Below are positions 1,567 to 16,812 of a DNA stretch of 45,023 nucleotides, one piece after another. The number at the start of each line of letters is the position of its first letter. The first letter of the stretch is position 1. The DNA is from a virus. Made by a program: the position numbers and the translations under genes. The stretch covers positions 1-45,023 of IMG/VR virus record IMGVR_UViG_3300021197_001204, one strand, 5' to 3'. The notes beneath the pieces are model-generated. The model saw only the letters and a list, made by a program, of their open reading frames with translations, made no database searches and was not told the origin of the DNA.

Positions 1567-1856
1567 AACCAAAAAAAATAGATGCAATCGTTTCGCTTGA
1601 CCCTACGGCAAGAGTTGTGGTCAGAAACAGGACGAAAGTTGATTGGCTTGATTCTAACCCGAATAATATTTCTGAGGATGCTATTCAAAATAAATGGGAT
1701 GAGCTTCTCGCAGAATACGAGTCAAAACAGTACAAACGTGACCGAGCGTCTTCCTACCCACCTTTAGCTGAACAATTAGACATACTTTATCATGGTGGAG
1801 TTAATGCTCTTAAAGCTGAACTGAAGAAAACCAAAGATAAGTATCCTAAACCATGA
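1563..1856 (+). CDS. Small fibre-linked protein, possible tail fibre assembly chaperone (copy 2)
   Basis: 97 residues. The C-terminal part, with YKRDRASSYPPLAEQLDILY and a KYPKP ending, matches the layout of the protein at 712-1014. This makes them divergent paralogs placed one after each fibre-like gene. The N-terminal half (residues 1-55) is unrelated and could be the part that contacts its own fibre. Its start overlaps the fibre stop, and its stop overlaps the start of the holin-like gene at 1853 (ATGA). Function is not established. Confidence 0.5.
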   Translation: MKPKKIDAIVSLDPTARVVVRNRTKVDWLDSNPNNISEDAIQNKWDELLAEYESKQYKRDRASSYPPLAEQLDILYHGGVNALKAELKKTKDKYPKP

Positions 1857-2188
1857 GTGGACATCACATGAACCCTGCGGATGCTCAGTATTATAACTAT
1901 CCAACCCAGCAAGTAACACAAGCTATGCCTGAAGTAAACACTTTGTACACAATGGTAATGGACCTGGGCATACCAGCGTGTGTCATCATTGCCTCATTCT
2001 GGTTCATTAAATACACAACCGATCAAGCGAGAAAAGAACGTGAAGAGTTTTGGAAAAAAGATGCAGAAAACGATACAAAGATTATGGCTATGGTTGAAAA
2101 ATCTTCAGATGCCATTATTTCTATCAAATTGGCCCTTGAACAGAACACACAAGCAATCAAAGAATTAACCAATGGAAGAAATCATTGA
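1853..2188 (+). CDS. Holin-like membrane protein (BhlA/UviB-type architecture)
   Basis: 111 residues. There is one hydrophobic segment at about residues 33-52 (MDLGIPACVIIASFWFIKY), then an amphipathic charged helix (QARKEREEFWKKD) and a C-terminal helix ending in IKEL. One N-terminal membrane span followed by a K/R/E-rich coiled region is the architecture of BhlA/UviB holin-like proteins. The gene starts the lysis block that ends with the M15 peptidase at 3040, which supports a membrane-permeabilising role. The assignment rests on topology and position only. Confidence 0.5.
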   Translation: MSGHHMNPADAQYYNYPTQQVTQAMPEVNTLYTMVMDLGIPACVIIASFWFIKYTTDQARKEREEFWKKDAENDTKIMAMVEKSSDAIISIKLALEQNTQAIKELTNGRNH

Positions 2189-2498
2189 GAAAACAACTAA
2201 AAAGGGTCTAGGAAAAGTAGATATTGACCCTAATATAAAACTTCAAATATTAAGATTCTGGGCAAGGCTTGTTATTAGTTTTGCTGCGTTTGGTCTATTT
2301 GGTTGGTTAATGTACACAATGATACATAAAACTGAACCTTTAGACCCTGGTGCATCCGATCTCATTTTTTTAGGGTTCGGAGCATTTTTACCTCTCATTG
2401 GTATGTTGTCAAAGCATTGGTATGAGAGTCCTCATGAAGATATTAAACCAACAACCACAGAACCAACAAAATCAAATGATACCAGCATTACTCCTTAA
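2172..2498 (+). CDS. Two-span membrane protein, candidate holin
   Basis: 108 residues with two hydrophobic stretches, roughly 31-51 (LVISFAAFGLFGWLMYTMI) and 63-79 (LIFLGFGAFLPLIGML), joined by a short polar loop. A Thr/Pro/Ser-rich C-terminal tail follows. This two-span topology suits a class II holin, and the gene lies in the lysis block. It overlaps the end of the preceding holin-like gene by 17 bases, so the two may act as a pair such as holin and antiholin. No family-specific motif was recognised. Confidence 0.45.
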   Translation: MEEIIEKTTKKGLGKVDIDPNIKLQILRFWARLVISFAAFGLFGWLMYTMIHKTEPLDPGASDLIFLGFGAFLPLIGMLSKHWYESPHEDIKPTTTEPTKSNDTSITP

Positions 2499-2664: not shown

Positions 2665-2987
2665 AAACATTTATAATGGGACTATTACTGCTAATAATAA
2701 GTAGTAGTCCTTTAGTATCTAAGGAATACACAGGAACATATAATACACAAACCATTAGATTACTTTGGATGGCTTGTTACCAAGGTACAATGAGAGTAGA
2801 CCCAAGTAATCCTCATTACAATGGTGCTCTATGTGACTGTGTAGTTAATAAAACAAGGCAGAACTATACTGCAAATGAAATGCAAAAGTATAAAGGTGCT
2901 ACTATGCAGAAAAATTACAATGAAATGGCTAATCAATGTAAAAGTATATTAATGTTAACACCTCCACCTATAGAATTATTTTCATGA
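2661..2987 (+). CDS. Exported Cys-containing protein of unknown function
   Basis: 108 residues with a clear signal peptide: Lys at position 2, a hydrophobic core (FIMGLLLLIIS) and a likely cleavage near residue 20 after SSPLVS. The mature part has four cysteines, including a C-D-C pair and a late NQC, so disulfides in the periplasm are plausible. It lies between holin-like genes and the M15 peptidase and overlaps both neighbours by a few bases. A role in envelope disruption, such as a spanin-like part, is conceivable, but no lipobox or spanin pair is visible. Confidence 0.5.
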   Translation: MKTFIMGLLLLIISSSPLVSKEYTGTYNTQTIRLLWMACYQGTMRVDPSNPHYNGALCDCVVNKTRQNYTANEMQKYKGATMQKNYNEMANQCKSILMLTPPPIELFS

Positions 2988-3040
2988 AGAAAAAGAAGTG
3001 TCCTAAATGCGGTAAAACTAAATGTAACTGTAAATACTAA
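2984..3040 (+). CDS. 18-residue Cys-rich metal-binding-like microprotein
   Basis: A tiny frame beginning with four lysines and carrying CPKCGKTKCNC, i.e. C-x2-C-x4-C-x-C. Its start overlaps the previous stop (ATGA), and its TAA overlaps the ATG of the peptidase gene at 3040, so it fits tightly between coupled genes. The same cysteine spacing recurs in the 57-residue protein at 3872-4045. The four cysteines could bind one zinc ion. The coupling at both ends argues that it is translated. Function is unknown. Confidence 0.45.
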   Translation: MKKKKCPKCGKTKCNCKY

Positions 3041-3507
3041 TGAAACTAAGTAAGAACTTTTCACTCAAAGAACTCACTAGATCTCAAACTGCTATGAGGT
3101 TAGGAATAGATAACAATCCTAACCAAGAGCAACTCGTTAATCTCACTGCACTCTCTTGTATGGTCCTTCAGAAAATAAGAGAAGGTCATGGAAGAGTAAA
3201 TGTAAACAGTGCTCTAAGGGTATTGGACTTGAATCGAGCCATAGGTAGCGGAGATACCTCTCAGCATATCCAAGGGAAAGCTGCAGATATCGAATGTCCA
3301 TCTATAGATAACCTAGAGTTAGCTAAATGGATTAGGGATAACATAACATCCTATGATCAATTGATTCTTGAGTTTTATGAACCAGGAATACCTGACAGTG
3401 GATGGATTCACGTTAGTTATTGTGCAGATGGTAACAATAGAAAAAAAGAACTCACTGCTTCCAGAATAGAAGGTAAAGTAACTTACACTGAGGGTATTAA
3501 TGGTTGA
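3040..3507 (+). CDS. M15-family peptidase, likely endolysin
   Basis: 155 residues matching the Peptidase_M15 (D-Ala-D-Ala carboxypeptidase-like) fold. The zinc-site motif is SQHIQGKAAD with H76 and D83. A likely catalytic Glu sits in LILEF (E111), and the third zinc ligand is H124 in GWIHVS. Phage proteins of this family cleave the peptide part of peptidoglycan at the end of infection. It has no signal peptide, so it would depend on the upstream holin-like proteins to reach the cell wall. In T7 the amidase (gene 3.5) sits in the replication region instead. The family is clear; the lysis role is inferred from position. Confidence 0.8.
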   Translation: MKLSKNFSLKELTRSQTAMRLGIDNNPNQEQLVNLTALSCMVLQKIREGHGRVNVNSALRVLDLNRAIGSGDTSQHIQGKAADIECPSIDNLELAKWIRDNITSYDQLILEFYEPGIPDSGWIHVSYCADGNNRKKELTASRIEGKVTYTEGING

Positions 3508-3721
3508 CACACTTCAAAAACTTCACGCTGCAGTAGCCCAAGAACTCTTGGATAGAATCCAGAGTGGTGAAGCTGTTCCTGCGGATCTCTCAGTTGCCGT
3601 AAAGTTCTTAAAAGACAATGAAATTACTTCTCTTCCTGTTCAAGACAGTCCACTTAAAAACCTCTTGGATAACATGCCGTTTCCATCTAAAGAGGATATT
3701 AAGAAAAACATACTTTCCTAA
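3500..3721 (+). CDS. Small terminase subunit (T7 gp18-like DNA maturase A)
   Basis: 73 residues, mostly helical. An N-terminal helix (LQKLHAAVAQELLDRIQSGE) is followed by LSVAVKFLKDNEI and an acidic C-terminus with FPSKEDIKKN. This matches the short small-terminase proteins of marine T7-like phages, and its place shortly before the large terminase matches the T7 order 18-18.5-19. It would recognise the concatemer and feed DNA to the large subunit. The start overlaps the peptidase gene by 8 bases. The assignment comes from pattern and position rather than a catalytic motif. Confidence 0.6.
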   Translation: MVDTLQKLHAAVAQELLDRIQSGEAVPADLSVAVKFLKDNEITSLPVQDSPLKNLLDNMPFPSKEDIKKNILS

Positions 3722-3735
3722 AGTAGACCTTTTAG

Positions 3736-3882
3736 ATGTGCCTAGAATCTCCAGCATGGCATTGGTGGTTTACCCATATAACTATATGGCTATATCTTTT
3801 TAGTATCCCAGTATTGATTGGGTATTTACTTATTCATATAAAGAACATAGAAATAAGAAAGGTCAAAGAGGATGAAATATGA
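3736..3882 (+). CDS. 48-residue membrane protein, in the position of T7 gene 18.5
   Basis: The short frame encodes an aromatic N-terminus (PAWHWWFTH), one long hydrophobic segment (ITIWLYLFSIPVLIGYLLI) and a charged tail (RKVKEDEI). T7 carries its Rz-like inner-membrane spanin gene 18.5 at this point, between the two terminase genes. A spanin role is possible, but the tail here is far too short for a classical i-spanin. The next small gene starts inside its last codons. Confidence 0.45.
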   Translation: MCLESPAWHWWFTHITIWLYLFSIPVLIGYLLIHIKNIEIRKVKEDEI

Positions 3883-4045
3883 GTCTCTTAAACAAAGGGA
3901 GCATAGAGAGGGTTATAATAAAGCTATGGGATATAAAGAAAGAAACATGGCAGATGATACATGTGAGGACTGTTATGAATCTCCATGTATGTGTAAGGAA
4001 CTAGAAAACCAAAGGAAACTAAGGGAACTCAGAGGAGGAATGTGA
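3872..4045 (+). CDS. 57-residue Cys-cluster protein
   Basis: A charged helical N-terminus (MKYESLKQREHREGYNKAMG) is followed by CEDCYESPCMC, with spacing C-x2-C-x4-C-x-C. This is exactly the spacing of the 18-residue protein at 2984-3040. The C-terminus is a basic helix. It overlaps the preceding membrane-protein gene by 11 bases, and its stop overlaps the GTG of the next gene (ATGTGA). It is probably a small zinc-binding protein. Function is unknown. Confidence 0.5.
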   Translation: MKYESLKQREHREGYNKAMGYKERNMADDTCEDCYESPCMCKELENQRKLRELRGGM

Positions 4046-4473
4046 TTCAGAACAATCCTATTGTAGTTACATTAGGAGGTTTAATACTCTTCTATATAGG
4101 ATTAAAAATGTTTGCAGGAGGATTAAAATCAATGGGTAACATTGAACACCTTCAGTACTTTATGAATAATCCTTATTACATGTTTCTTGGTGGAATTATA
4201 ATGACTCTTCTATGGCAATCCAGTTCCTTGAGTACTACTGCAATCGTAGGTTTGGTAGCGAGTGGAATGCTACCATTAAACGCTGCAATAGCTTGTGTAC
4301 TAGGGGCAAACATAGGGACTACTGGGACTATATGGTTAGCTGCATTTCACGATGGTATTCCACAAGGAACTACTAAACACATAGCAATGGTTCACACAGG
4401 AGTTAATCTGTTTATGGCATTAACACTCCTTCCTTTTATTCATTACATATCAAGATTTGTATCAAGGTTTTAA
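4042..4473 (+). CDS. Na+/phosphate cotransporter domain protein (single Na_Pi_cotrans repeat)
   Basis: 143 residues from a GTG that overlaps the previous stop. The signature of the NptA/PNaS family is present in order: the GLKMFAGGLKSMG helix (20-32), TLLWQSSSLSTTAIVG with the QSSS motif (59-62), the GANIGTT loop (88-94), and IAMVHTGVNLFMAL (114-127). Four to five hydrophobic segments are visible. Host transporters of this family carry two such repeats in inverted orientation; this protein has one, so it would need to dimerise or partner with a host subunit. Family members co-transport Na+ and phosphate across the inner membrane. Its place between the terminase subunits is not metabolic, so it may be a recently inserted auxiliary metabolic gene, or a membrane protein reused in lysis. 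Confidence 0.7.
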   Translation: MIQNNPIVVTLGGLILFYIGLKMFAGGLKSMGNIEHLQYFMNNPYYMFLGGIIMTLLWQSSSLSTTAIVGLVASGMLPLNAAIACVLGANIGTTGTIWLAAFHDGIPQGTTKHIAMVHTGVNLFMALTLLPFIHYISRFVSRF

Positions 4474-4474
4474 A

Positions 4475-6139
4475 GTGAAAGAACTCCTAGATTTCCGTAA
4501 TTTCCTTTATATGGCATGGAAACACCTTAACCTTCCTCAACCTACTCCTGTTCAATATGATATAGCCCAGTTTCTTCAGGATGCTCCTAAACGTGGAGTT
4601 ATAGAAGCATTCAGAGGAGTAGGTAAATCGTATATCACGAGTGCCTTTGTATGCTGGAAATTACTCCTTGACTCAGAACATAAAGTACTCGTAGTCAGTG
4701 CTTCCAAGACTCGTAGTGATGATTTCTCTACGTTTACCCAGAGACTCATTCAAGAGATGCCAGTGCTTCACCATTTAAAATCTAGGGAAGGCCAAAGACA
4801 ATCAAAGATATCTTTTGATGTCGGTCCTGCTAAAGCATCCCATAGTCCATCTGTGAAGTCCGTAGGTATCACTGGACAACTTGCTGGATCTCGTGCAGAT
4901 CTTATCGTTGCTGACGATGTGGAGGTTCCTAATAACTCCATGACACAAGTTATGAGAGATAAGTTATCGGAAGCAGTAAAAGAATTTGATGCGATACTCA
5001 AACCAGATGGAATGATTATGTACCTTGGCACTCCTCAAACAGAGATGTCACTCTATGAAACACTTCCTGAAAGGGGATATGAGACTAGGATCTGGCCGGG
5101 GAGATACCCAGGTGAATCTCAGGTACTCAAGTACAACAATAGGCTTGCTCCTTTTATTACGGACAAGCTGGAAAGAGATACTACACTCCACGGTCAACCT
5201 ACAGATCCCAAGAGATTTGACGATACAGACCTCACTGAACGTGAATTGAGCTATGGTAGATCTGGGTTTAACCTCCAGTTTATGCTCGATACATCCCTGA
5301 GTGATGCCGATAGGTATCCATTGAAGCTCAGTGATTTTATCGTGATGTCCCTAGATTCCGATAAAGCACCTGAAAAACCTATATGGTCCAATGATGTCAA
5401 GAATAAGATCACAGAGGTTCCCAATGTAGGGTTACCAGGGGATTTCTATTATAATCCACAGGATACCGTAGGTTCATGGCTGGATTACACTGGGAGTGTC
5501 ATGGCTATTGACCCTAGTGGAAGAGGAAAAGACGAAATGGGGTACTCAGTAGTGAAGATGCTCAATGGATATCTCTATATCGTAGAGTCCTGTGGGATGC
5601 AAGGAGGGTATTCCAAAGATAACCTAGAAGCACTTTCAGTTATTGCTAGAAAGAACAAGGTCAACTACATCATCATCGAGAGTAATTTTGGCGATGGAAT
5701 GTTCATGGAACTCCTCAAGCCAGTACTCCTTAAAATCTATCCAGTAACAATAGAAGAAGTACGACACAACATACAGAAGGAGAAACGGATCATAGATACC
5801 CTTGAACCAGTGCTTAATCAGCATAGGCTTGTAGTGGATCAGAAGGTCATAGAAAAGGATTACAAGATGGTCCAGAACTATCCTGTGGAAAAACAATCCA
5901 AGTACATGCTCTTTCACCAATTAAGCAGGATAACCAAAGATAAAGGTGCATTAGTCCATGATGACCGATTGGATGCCCTTAGTATGGCAGTGGCATACTG
6001 GGTAGAACAAATGGCATCTGATGCTGAGAACGAGATCCAACATAGAAAGGACGAAATGATGGAACAGGAACTTGAGAAATTCTTGGCTCACGTAGTAGGA
6101 AAAGAACAGTACGAACCCTCTGTTCCAAATTGGCTGTAA
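4475..6139 (+). CDS. Terminase large subunit (T7 gp19-like)
   Basis: 554 residues from the GTG at 4475. I prefer this to a TTG at 4457 because AAGG sits about 8 bases upstream and the GTG follows the preceding stop directly. The ATPase part has a Walker A segment EAFRGVGKSYITSAFV, very close to the T7 form, and a Walker B segment ADLIVADDVEV. The nuclease half shows acidic motifs in AIDPSGRGKDEMGY, IIIESNFGDG and the final DDRLDALSMAVAYW. The protein packages concatemeric DNA into proheads and cuts it at the ends. The following promoter and dyad-rich region is where T7 has its packaging junction. Confidence 0.93.
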   Translation: MKELLDFRNFLYMAWKHLNLPQPTPVQYDIAQFLQDAPKRGVIEAFRGVGKSYITSAFVCWKLLLDSEHKVLVVSASKTRSDDFSTFTQRLIQEMPVLHHLKSREGQRQSKISFDVGPAKASHSPSVKSVGITGQLAGSRADLIVADDVEVPNNSMTQVMRDKLSEAVKEFDAILKPDGMIMYLGTPQTEMSLYETLPERGYETRIWPGRYPGESQVLKYNNRLAPFITDKLERDTTLHGQPTDPKRFDDTDLTERELSYGRSGFNLQFMLDTSLSDADRYPLKLSDFIVMSLDSDKAPEKPIWSNDVKNKITEVPNVGLPGDFYYNPQDTVGSWLDYTGSVMAIDPSGRGKDEMGYSVVKMLNGYLYIVESCGMQGGYSKDNLEALSVIARKNKVNYIIIESNFGDGMFMELLKPVLLKIYPVTIEEVRHNIQKEKRIIDTLEPVLNQHRLVVDQKVIEKDYKMVQNYPVEKQSKYMLFHQLSRITKDKGALVHDDRLDALSMAVAYWVEQMASDAENEIQHRKDEMMEQELEKFLAHVVGKEQYEPSVPNWL

Positions 6140-6157: not shown

Positions 6158-6186
6158 AAGTGCAATTAAGTTGCCCTATAGAGGAA
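6158..6186 (+). promoter_or_regulatory. Phage RNA polymerase promoter (right-end copy)
   Basis: A 29-bp sequence identical to that at 16784-16812. It has an upstream part AAGTGCAATTAAG and a core TTGCCCTATAGAGGAA. The CCTATAG-purine core parallels the T7 promoter core (CACTATAGGGAGA), and both copies sit in leaders directly upstream of genes on the + strand. The position after the large terminase corresponds to T7 phi-OR. Transcription would start at about 6181. Promoter function is inferred from identity, placement and the presence of a T7-type polymerase gene. Confidence 0.75.
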
Positions 6187-9754: not shown

Positions 9755-10054
9755 ATGGAATATTTTATCAAAACAGTAGAAGGCAACTCAACGAACCTAT
9801 CAACGGTTCTCAATCTCAACATGCCAAGAGGTAACTACTTCAAAGCCTGTGGGATGACTTTCAGATGGGTAGGTAAAGATCCAGATGGATCTCCAAGGTT
9901 CGTCCTAGTCTCTGGAAGAGATGCCAAGGAATCAGCTTATGAACTCTCTAGTGAGTGTAGGAGACAAAACTACCTCTATGAGATGCATGAGGATGATAAA
10001 CGAAGAAAACCAAAATCATTATTTAGTAGAATCTTAACCTTCTTAATTGGATGA
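9755..10054 (+). CDS. Hypothetical protein upstream of the methyltransferase
   Basis: 99 residues with a good ribosome site (GAAAGGAATC). The middle forms a likely beta sheet (KACGMTFRWVGKDPDGSPRF), followed by a charged helix (ESAYELSSECRRQNYLYEM) and a hydrophobic basic tail (LFSRILTFLIG). Its stop overlaps the ATG of the methyltransferase gene, so the two are co-translated. No family was recognised; a partner of the methyltransferase is possible. Confidence 0.55.
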   Translation: MEYFIKTVEGNSTNLSTVLNLNMPRGNYFKACGMTFRWVGKDPDGSPRFVLVSGRDAKESAYELSSECRRQNYLYEMHEDDKRRKPKSLFSRILTFLIG

Positions 10055-11124
10055 AAGTACTATCCCTTTTCGATGGAATGAGTTGTGGAAGGATTGCCCT
10101 TGAAAAAGCAGGAGTCTACATAGAAGAGTATCATGCTTCTGAGATAGACAAATATGCTATCAAGGTATCCAAGGATAACTACCCTGACAATGTTCATCAT
10201 GGAGATGTCAGGGAAGTTTCTGCAGCTGACTTTCCGAATGGAATAGATCTCCTTCTTGGAGGATCACCATGCCAAGGATTTAGCTTTAGTGGAAAGCGTT
10301 TGGACTTTGAAGATCCTAGAAGCAAGCTCTTCTTTGAATATGTGAGACTTCTCAAGGATCTCAAGCCAAAATGGTTTCTCTTAGAGAATGTTCGCATGAA
10401 GCAGGAATGCCAAGATGTGATCTCAGATCATCTGGGAGTCAAGCCTATAGCAATTAATTCAAGTCTTGTATCGGCTCAGAATAGATATCGGCTTTACTGG
10501 ACGAATATTCCATTCACTGAGCCAATGGATCGCAAGATCATGCTCAAGGATATCCTAGAAGATGGATTCCTTACTGATCGTGAAAAATCACATTGCTTGG
10601 ATGCCAATTATTTTAAGGGAGGAAATCTAAAGCAGTACTTTAAGAAGCACCGTAGACAATTAGTTTTCTCCCAAGATGGTTTATGCCATATCGGAGATGC
10701 TGAAGAGTACGATCACTATGCTCATGAAGCAATTAAACGAGTTTATCATCCAGATGGGAAAGCACCTACGTTAACCACATGTTCTGGAGGACATAGGGAA
10801 CCCAAAGTGATGATGCTTCAGAAACCCAGAGGAAATAACAAAGGAGGTGTAACAGAACGTGATAAGAGTCCATGTCTTTCATCAAGTAGTTGGGAACAGA
10901 ACAACTTTGTTGAATCTGATGGACCATCGAAATGGAGGAAACTCACTCCCAAGGAATGTGAGAGACTCCAGACTGTACCAGAGGATTATACTTCATCGGT
11001 AAGTAATACTCAGAGGTACAGAATGCTAGGCAACGGATGGACCGTTGATGTGATCTCTCATATATTTGATGAGGGATTTAATGATTGGATGAACCCTAAA
11101 TTTGAAAGGTTTCATGAAATCTAG
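10051..11124 (+). CDS. DNA (cytosine-5) methyltransferase
   Basis: 357 residues with the ordered motifs of the C5-MTase family. Motif I is LSLFDGMSCGRIALEKAG (4-21). The catalytic loop is GSPCQGFSF with Cys74, motif VI is LENVR (111-115) and motif VIII is QNRYRLYW. The C-terminal motifs IX-X include RKLTPKECERLQTVPEDY and RYRMLGNGWTVDVI. QNRYR and the compact target-recognition region recall the DNMT3-like phage enzymes. It transfers methyl from SAM to cytosine in DNA. No restriction endonuclease gene lies beside it, so it is probably an orphan that shields phage DNA from host restriction or marks packaging or regulatory sites. Confidence 0.92.
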   Translation: MKVLSLFDGMSCGRIALEKAGVYIEEYHASEIDKYAIKVSKDNYPDNVHHGDVREVSAADFPNGIDLLLGGSPCQGFSFSGKRLDFEDPRSKLFFEYVRLLKDLKPKWFLLENVRMKQECQDVISDHLGVKPIAINSSLVSAQNRYRLYWTNIPFTEPMDRKIMLKDILEDGFLTDREKSHCLDANYFKGGNLKQYFKKHRRQLVFSQDGLCHIGDAEEYDHYAHEAIKRVYHPDGKAPTLTTCSGGHREPKVMMLQKPRGNNKGGVTERDKSPCLSSSSWEQNNFVESDGPSKWRKLTPKECERLQTVPEDYTSSVSNTQRYRMLGNGWTVDVISHIFDEGFNDWMNPKFERFHEI

Positions 11125-13060: not shown

Positions 13061-14047
13061 ATGCCAATAAAGCAACGAGGAACCTCGTGGGAAGCATCGT
13101 TTTCCTACGAGGGCAAAAGATATCGCAGGAGTCTAACCACTCATGCATTGTGTGCAGAATGGATCGAATCAAGGAAATATGAACTAAAAAAGGGAATCAC
13201 GGTTTACCCTGAGTCCAAGGACAGTGAAAATTGGTCACTCAAACAAGCCTTTAATCAACTTTTTCAGGTGGAATGGAGTGGTCAAAGATCTCAGAAAGAC
13301 AACATCTATAAAATGGGTCAGATCTTAGCTCATTTTGGTGAAACTAGACCAATACGCTCTATCACAACTATTGATGTAGATAATTGGACTACAACTCTTA
13401 AAAACAGAGGAGACAAAAACACAACAATCAATAGAAAACTTGCTGGACTCCGTAAAGTCTTGAAGTTTTCACTGAAGAGAAAGAAAATTGATGAATGTCC
13501 TTATTTCACTCTTCAAAATGAAAAAGAAAACCAAAGATACCGTTGGATTACTGAAGATGAAGAAAGAAATATCCTAAAGTATTTTAAGGATTTCAAAGGT
13601 AATGAAGAGATGGAAGCATTCTTTATTATTCTCATGGATACTGGAATGAGAAGAGGAGAATTACTTGGATTAACTAAGAACGATGTGGATCTTAGAAACA
13701 ATATGATATCCATCTGGTTTACTAAAGCAGATCTTCCCAGATCAATCCCAATGACTCCAAGAGTAAAAAAAGTAATTGAAGCTAAACTTAAAAGTAGTTC
13801 TCATAAATTATTTACTCATGGGATTCATTACTATCGATGGAGATGGGACATAATGAAACGAGAACTAAACCTTAAAGATGTGGTAGTTCATACCCTTAGA
13901 CATACCTTTGCATCCAGGCTTGCCCAACGTGGAGGTAACATCTACCACATCAAAGAACTCTTAGGTCACCGTGATATTTCCAACACGATGATCTATGCTC
14001 ACCTAGCACCTAAAGATTTAGCATCATGTATAAAACTCTTGTGCTAG
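13061..14047 (+). CDS. int: Tyrosine-family site-specific integrase
   Basis: 328 residues. The N-terminal arm-binding part begins MPIKQRGTSWEASFSYEGKR, followed by a SAM-like core-binding domain around 60-145. The catalytic domain has Arg197 in DTGMRRGELLGL, Lys222, His277/Arg280 in HTLRHTFASRL, His303 in LLGHRD and the nucleophile Tyr312 in NTMIYAH, so the active site is complete. It would recombine the adjacent attP with the host tRNA-Leu gene. The stop is followed at once by repeats and the tRNA fragment, the standard int-attP layout. Confidence 0.93.
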   Translation: MPIKQRGTSWEASFSYEGKRYRRSLTTHALCAEWIESRKYELKKGITVYPESKDSENWSLKQAFNQLFQVEWSGQRSQKDNIYKMGQILAHFGETRPIRSITTIDVDNWTTTLKNRGDKNTTINRKLAGLRKVLKFSLKRKKIDECPYFTLQNEKENQRYRWITEDEERNILKYFKDFKGNEEMEAFFIILMDTGMRRGELLGLTKNDVDLRNNMISIWFTKADLPRSIPMTPRVKKVIEAKLKSSSHKLFTHGIHYYRWRWDIMKRELNLKDVVVHTLRHTFASRLAQRGGNIYHIKELLGHRDISNTMIYAHLAPKDLASCIKLLC

Positions 14048-16783: not shown

Positions 16784-16812
16784 AAGTGCAATTAAGTTGC
16801 CCTATAGAGGAA
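16784..16812 (+). promoter_or_regulatory. Phage RNA polymerase promoter (replication-gene copy)
   Basis: Identical over 29 bp to 6158-6186: AAGTGCAATTAAG followed by TTGCCCTATAGAGGAA. It lies in the 101-base gap between the RNA polymerase and SSB genes, so it would drive SSB and all downstream replication genes. The transcript would begin near 16807. Downstream leaders of both copies are purine rich and include an ACCTTA element. Confidence 0.8.

Follow-up and report, generated by a model that had tools for sequence, protein, structure and literature searches.

A half-size, virus-borne Na_Pi_cotrans gene as probable nutrient-uptake cargo of marine phages

The stretch of DNA analysed here (45,023 nucleotides, IMG/VR record IMGVR_UViG_3300021197_001204, hereafter the window) carries a half-size, single-repeat member of the Na_Pi_cotrans (SLC34/NptA) family. 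We consider it rather likely that this is a nutrient-uptake cargo gene, the product of which would act as a homo-oligomer rebuilding the two-repeat core.

The record derives from a marine, integrase-bearing T7-like podophage with genes for a T7-type RNA polymerase (RNAP), a T7 primase-helicase, DNA polymerase A and a head-tail connector, and its large terminase subunit (TerL) shares 57-64% identity with those of the listed roseophages and pelagiphages. A tyrosine integrase gene (13061-14047) lies directly 5' of the T7-type RNAP gene and a C5-cytosine methyltransferase gene (10051-11124) in the early region. The region around the half-transporter gene is organized as follows.

1853-2188 and 2172-2498, + strand: two small ORFs with hydrophobic segments, 5' of the endolysin gene; they align to the empty-site sister L085
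3040..3507, + strand: endolysin (Peptidase_M15_3; PF08291, 5.2e-17; phrog_894), retained in sisters devoid of the half-transporter
3500..3721, + strand: terminase small subunit (TerS, DNA_Packaging_2; PF11123, 2.6e-19; phrog_891)
3736..3882, + strand: orf48, small single-TM-like protein, conserved in sisters L082-L085
3872..4045, + strand: orf57, small Cys-rich protein (57 aa), left edge of the cargo site, immediately 5' of TerL in empty-site sisters
4032..4045, + strand: Shine-Dalgarno-like GAGGAGGA with ATGTGA stop/start overlap, from orf57 to the half-transporter (sequence and junction alignment)
4042..4473, + strand: half-transporter gene, one Na_Pi_cotrans repeat in 143 aa, starting with GTG (PF02690, NF037997 and both SLC34A2a repeats matched)
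4475..6139, + strand: TerL (T7-type; PF22530, 8.2e-40; phrog_38, 1.4e-118), GTG start 4475 placed from the sisters

A reading made from the sequence only had located the gene between the terminase subunits and coupled it to both neighbours by stop/start overlap. TerS and TerL do flank it, but the ORFs at 3736-3882 and 3872-4045 also intervene after TerS. Upstream, the coupling was confirmed, the orf57 stop overlapping the half-transporter GTG within ATGTGA at 4042-4045; in the junction alignment, the empty-site sisters display GAGGAGGAATGTAA at the place of window 4032..4045. Downstream, it probably does not hold: since the TerLs of the sisters begin at GTG 4475, this codon, one base past the half-transporter stop, is most likely the TerL start, and the overlap generated by a TTG-4457 start is probably not real. 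An identical 21-nt ATTAAGTTGCCCTATAGAGGA is found at 6165-6185, just past TerL, and at 16791-16811, just past the T7-type RNAP gene (0 expected by chance), and these repeats could serve as promoters for the phage RNAP. On the basis of gene order and of these repeats, the half-transporter would be transcribed towards the close of the late region, a position that would argue against an uptake role, as the extra phosphate would come late.

Family membership and the full set of landmarks, as first read from the letters, were borne out by profile searches. Pfam PF02690 matched a single stretch of the 143-aa ORF with 69.2 bits (gathering cut-off 29.1, E=4.8e-19) and the NCBIfam Na_Pi_symport model NF037997 with 62.5 (cut-off 50). 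Both repeats of zebrafish SLC34A2a (9z60) were matched by the phage protein (phmmer, E=4.8e-19) and likewise by the family profile, while PHROGs provided no convincing family. The landmarks are QSSS (residues 59-62), GANIGTT (88-94) and HTGVN (118-122). The claim of one repeat also stood, since no second copy was detected across the 45-kb record; the two inverted repeats in one polypeptide that make up the NptA/SLC34 architecture are represented here by one repeat in one copy. The QSSS and GxNIGTT motifs of PF02690 are invariant or nearly so among 58 viral-type sequences, with full invariance of QSSS, of G88, A89, N90, G92, T93, T94, G95 and T96, and of H118, T119, G120 and N122. In NaPi-II, Na+ and Pi binding has been tied to QSSS, to the T in NIGTT and at +3, and to the N of HxxxN (PMC6325988). 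The phage residues that correspond to these by alignment, with roles taken from that paper, are invariant in the 58 sequences.

Relatives of the half-transporter are encoded in 136 IMG/VR stretches and were found on over 130 contigs at 60-89% identity (67-88% for the best 80 of the 136 stretches); a second query led to 67 further loci, partly overlapping the first set. All intact relatives that were read are single-repeat proteins of about 143-180 aa. Among the first 81 loci, where no length filter was used, intact ORFs with both motifs never exceeded 196 aa from stop to stop, and a later count, with a 230-aa filter, gave 144 ORFs of 143-178 aa from the chosen ATG. T4-like markers (DUF6267, RNase H, gp59, DUF6433, gp23) or a family B DNA polymerase occur in at least 95 of 149 flanks and, judged by these marker genes, most members appear to sit in T4-like myophage contigs; the T7-like carriers are the window, L001, L087 and L125. 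Among named phages in GenBank no close relative was found, all matches being below 60% identity and mostly in unannotated records. In L021-L024, three related tandem ORFs (cluster c11, 341-355 aa) lie a few genes 3' of the half-transporter, and the one ORF of this cluster that was scanned had no Pfam match.

The dN/dS ratio between half-transporter lineages is about 0.12 (0.09-0.17), indicating that the gene is under purifying selection. This bears on the idea that it is either an artefact of assembly or what is left of a full-length carrier gene in decay, which its half-normal length could suggest, as could its exact junctions, for which no second contig was found in IMG/VR. Such an origin is very improbable in view of the more than 130 relatives, intact and single-repeat where read, the low dN/dS, the clean stop/start junctions and the independent occurrence of the gene in the same slot in L125.

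To look for cellular counterparts, viral signature peptides were compared with 84,980 species genomes. Only two contigs matched, both in metagenome bins (MAGs), one assigned to Chloroflexi (L162) and one to Flavobacteriales (L163), and both carry a half-transporter. Of seven L162 ORFs tested, six match the viral contig L176 (71-90% identity); in L163, viral relatives at 82-91% exist for the amt and PnrA-like neighbours. A cellular origin based on these two matches was rejected, since their viral neighbours make both look like viral contigs in bins. The MAG contigs hold the half-transporter beside isocitrate-lyase-like and IMPDH-like ORFs, or beside amt and PnrA-like genes. In a sample of 299 cellular genomes (198 Bacteroidota and 101 Chloroflexota), the matches, the two viral-looking MAG contigs apart, lie in ORFs of 369 aa or longer, the majority showing two repeat matches, and score at most 65 bits, as against 256-283 for these two contigs. 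In the data searched the half-size form therefore appears restricted to viruses, with no genuine cellular sequence.

When the repeats were split for tree building, the viral sequences formed one group (95/98) outside both the RU1 and the RU2 groups; the cellular sampling comprises two phyla and the program flagged long branches. Within these limits of two phyla and long branches, the placement speaks against the viral form having recently arisen from one of the sampled cellular carriers by loss of a repeat. The separate branching of the viral clade from both cellular repeats, together with the Thr that aligns to D224 of NaPi-II, would suit a Na+-coupled carrier of a non-phosphate substrate, for example another oxyanion, built on the half repeat. 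However, the QSSS and NIGTT positions assigned to Na+ and Pi are invariant or nearly so, and we regard a different substrate as unlikely.

The AlphaFold2 monomer of the window protein (pLDDT 83.7) contains the elements listed below, with a short additional helix (residues 35-41) after TM1.

4057..4131, + strand: TM1, residues 6-30, predicted helix
4171..4260, + strand: helix-break-helix, residues 44-58 / 61-73, putative re-entrant hairpin, similar in L002
4216-4227, + strand: QSSS, residues 59-62, at the predicted break of the helix pair, invariant in the 58 sequences
4276..4353, + strand: TM2, residues 79-104, predicted helix
4303-4329, + strand: GANIGTTGT, residues 88-96, within TM2 (from the sequence)
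4366..4464, + strand: TM3, residues 109-141, predicted helix
4393-4407, + strand: HTGVN, residues 118-122, within TM3 (from the sequence)

This predicted order agrees with that of one NaPi-II repeat, modelled as TM1, hairpin, TM2 and TM3 (PMC6325988). The model of a relative, L002, has the same plan with an additional basic N-terminal helix. TM2 is unbroken in both monomers, in contrast to the broken TM helix of two-repeat symporters, and Foldseek retrieved nothing better than E about 1 from the PDB with either of them; on these two grounds, tertiary support for the fold is lacking. A Foldseek search of BFVD with one monomer gave nothing useful.

Three predicted crossings and a hairpin would leave the N and C termini on opposite sides of the membrane, so that only with dual topology could a homodimer reproduce the inverted repeats. 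The situation is reminiscent of the dual-topology half transporters EmrE/SMR and Fluc, in which a small single-repeat membrane protein likewise needs an inverted partner for the two-fold unit. The fold of these proteins is unrelated to Na_Pi_cotrans. The positive-inside K+R bias is reported to be near zero in EmrE, whereas that of the viral family is neither near zero nor constant in sign: it ranges from -3 to +5, the window protein standing at -3 and relatives with a basic N-terminal tail mostly between +1 and +5. This tail, present in most relatives, is missing in the members from the window, L001, L087, L234 and L077, that is, in those of T7-like phages and a few others, and its absence from this subgroup would flip the predicted positive-inside orientation between subgroups. 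As in dual-topology proteins, the gene is present as a single copy and not as an oppositely oriented pair: exactly one copy was found in each of 41 matching records, corresponding to the two MAGs and to all 39 viral records, including contigs of 77, 78 and 117 kb. Dual topology with antiparallel assembly is plausible, and we entertain as a tentative possibility, with less than even confidence, that one gene supplies both inverted halves of an antiparallel homodimer, making a working one-repeat Na+/phosphate cotransporter fold.

The single copy per phage can also be read differently. The viral half might be a modifier subunit that pairs with a two-repeat Na/Pi carrier of the host, or with one half of it, and boosts, redirects or blocks it, as the known site is built from two repeats, which a lone one cannot provide. 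The family nevertheless occurs in unrelated phage types, and the Chloroflexi and Flavobacteriales MAGs contain no other PF02690 match, although these genomes could have gaps and do not necessarily belong to hosts. A modifier role thus has little probability in our view, and one copy in 39 of 39 viral records of up to 117 kb would favour a self-sufficient half-transporter.

The location of the gene proved variable. In the sisters L082-L085 (TerL 96-97% identical, DNA about 90%), orf57 is followed by TerL with nothing between, and no PF02690 match was present in seven records chosen by TerL relationship, some of which are fragments. In L001, which shares 98.9% identity with the window over 2868-3041, and in L087, the half-transporter lies directly 5' of the endolysin gene. 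L125 has it in the TerS-TerL slot, adjoining an Hsp20 gene, and in other relatives this slot holds IscU, ErpA or ADP-ribosyltransferase genes. The slot (window 3722-4474; L126, L112, L125, L099, L120) is between about 25 bp and about 2 kb long, and its contents in T7-like marine relatives are IscU (NifU_N), ErpA-like, Hsp20 and ART-PolyVal genes. The TerS-TerL junction of marine podophages thereby shows up, at the level of gene content, as a hotspot for cargo that includes metabolic genes. The insertion between the terminase subunits, as initially proposed, is real in the window, but as a one-off event it was too narrow an idea, given several sites and several phage types.

The late location beside endolysin and terminase genes, the placement directly before the endolysin in L001 and L087, and the small, hydrophobic nature of the protein had raised a second possibility, that of a holin-like or sodium-leak protein, small, multi-spanning and made late, which would collapse the membrane potential and trigger or aid lysis. 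Yet the sisters with 96-97% TerL identity retain the endolysin without the half-transporter, and L085, which reaches further upstream, also retains the region of membrane ORFs. These small ORFs at 1853..2498, for which Pfam and PHROGs searches gave no informative match, are candidate holin-type genes. Moreover, T4-like contigs place the half-transporter beside replication, capsid or transporter genes, its ligand-site residues are invariant and would not be needed by a holin, and no holin family was matched in the family searches, PHROGs included. The lysis alternative of the sequence-only reading was consequently disfavoured on the missing family match, the endolysin-bearing empty-site sisters and the position of most relatives away from lysis genes, and we judge it improbable.

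At 11 loci the flanks include an ammonium transporter gene (Amt), and at 15 a gene for a PnrA-like substrate-binding protein, the Flavobacteriales MAG contig being counted in both; such neighbours can occur in T4-like contigs. The half-transporter is present in some phages and absent from their sisters, as is typical of auxiliary genes. Because of the empty sites, the changing position, the purifying selection and the nutrient-gene neighbours, it is best described, from comparative sequence data, as a cargo gene that is dispensable yet maintained by selection and that keeps company with genes for nutrient acquisition. The auxiliary-transporter interpretation put forward at the outset was strengthened by the same evidence and by the cargo slot.

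In the nutrient-uptake reading that we favour, the single repeat (TM1, QSSS hairpin, TM2 with GANIGTT, TM3) would assemble in two copies, and this homo-oligomer would restore the two-repeat core of cellular carriers. The binding site for Na+ and phosphate (or a related anion) would lie where the two QSSS/GANIGTT faces meet, and uptake, powered by the marine Na+ gradient, would provide the infected cell with phosphate while phage DNA is being made. The gene itself would move as cargo, set cleanly at gene junctions.

The repeat sequence, QSSS, GxNIGTT and HxxxN are common to the viral proteins and to the bacterial Na/Pi cotransporters NptA/YjbB and SLC34 (NaPi-II) of PF02690. The cellular members found here have two repeats per chain in ORFs of at least 369 aa, whereas the viral ones have one repeat in about 143-180 aa and a clade of their own. 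PF02690 genes have been reported in eight phage genomes of HMO-2011-type subgroup I and proposed to aid phosphate uptake, iscU and erpA being likewise noted in this group (PMC9038755). Both are Na/Pi genes of marine phages, likened here by annotation and not by sequence identity; in the accessible part of that paper the gene is named only as a transport protein, and we found no mention of its being half-size, single-copy, restricted to viruses or mobile in position. Virus-borne phosphate acquisition is also known from pstS of cyanophages and inorganic phosphate transporters of algal viruses (PMC3429862), but the families differ, pstS encoding a binding protein and the algal-virus genes other transporters. 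In our literature search, PF02690 was named for phages in a single paper, and no description of a half-size phage Na/Pi form was found. The half-size, virus-only form thus appears to be new, while PF02690 genes in marine phages were already known.

Should the dual-topology possibility be correct, the half-transporter would represent a present-day equivalent of the presumed NptA/SLC34 ancestor, one that our searches encountered solely in viruses. The family offers dozens of natural half-carriers of about 143-180 aa, with a size and diversity suited to expression, so that the transition from one repeat to two can be put to a direct test. In ecological terms, it suggests that marine phages of both T7-like and T4-like type supply phosphate uptake by a route other than the pstS one known from cyanophages.
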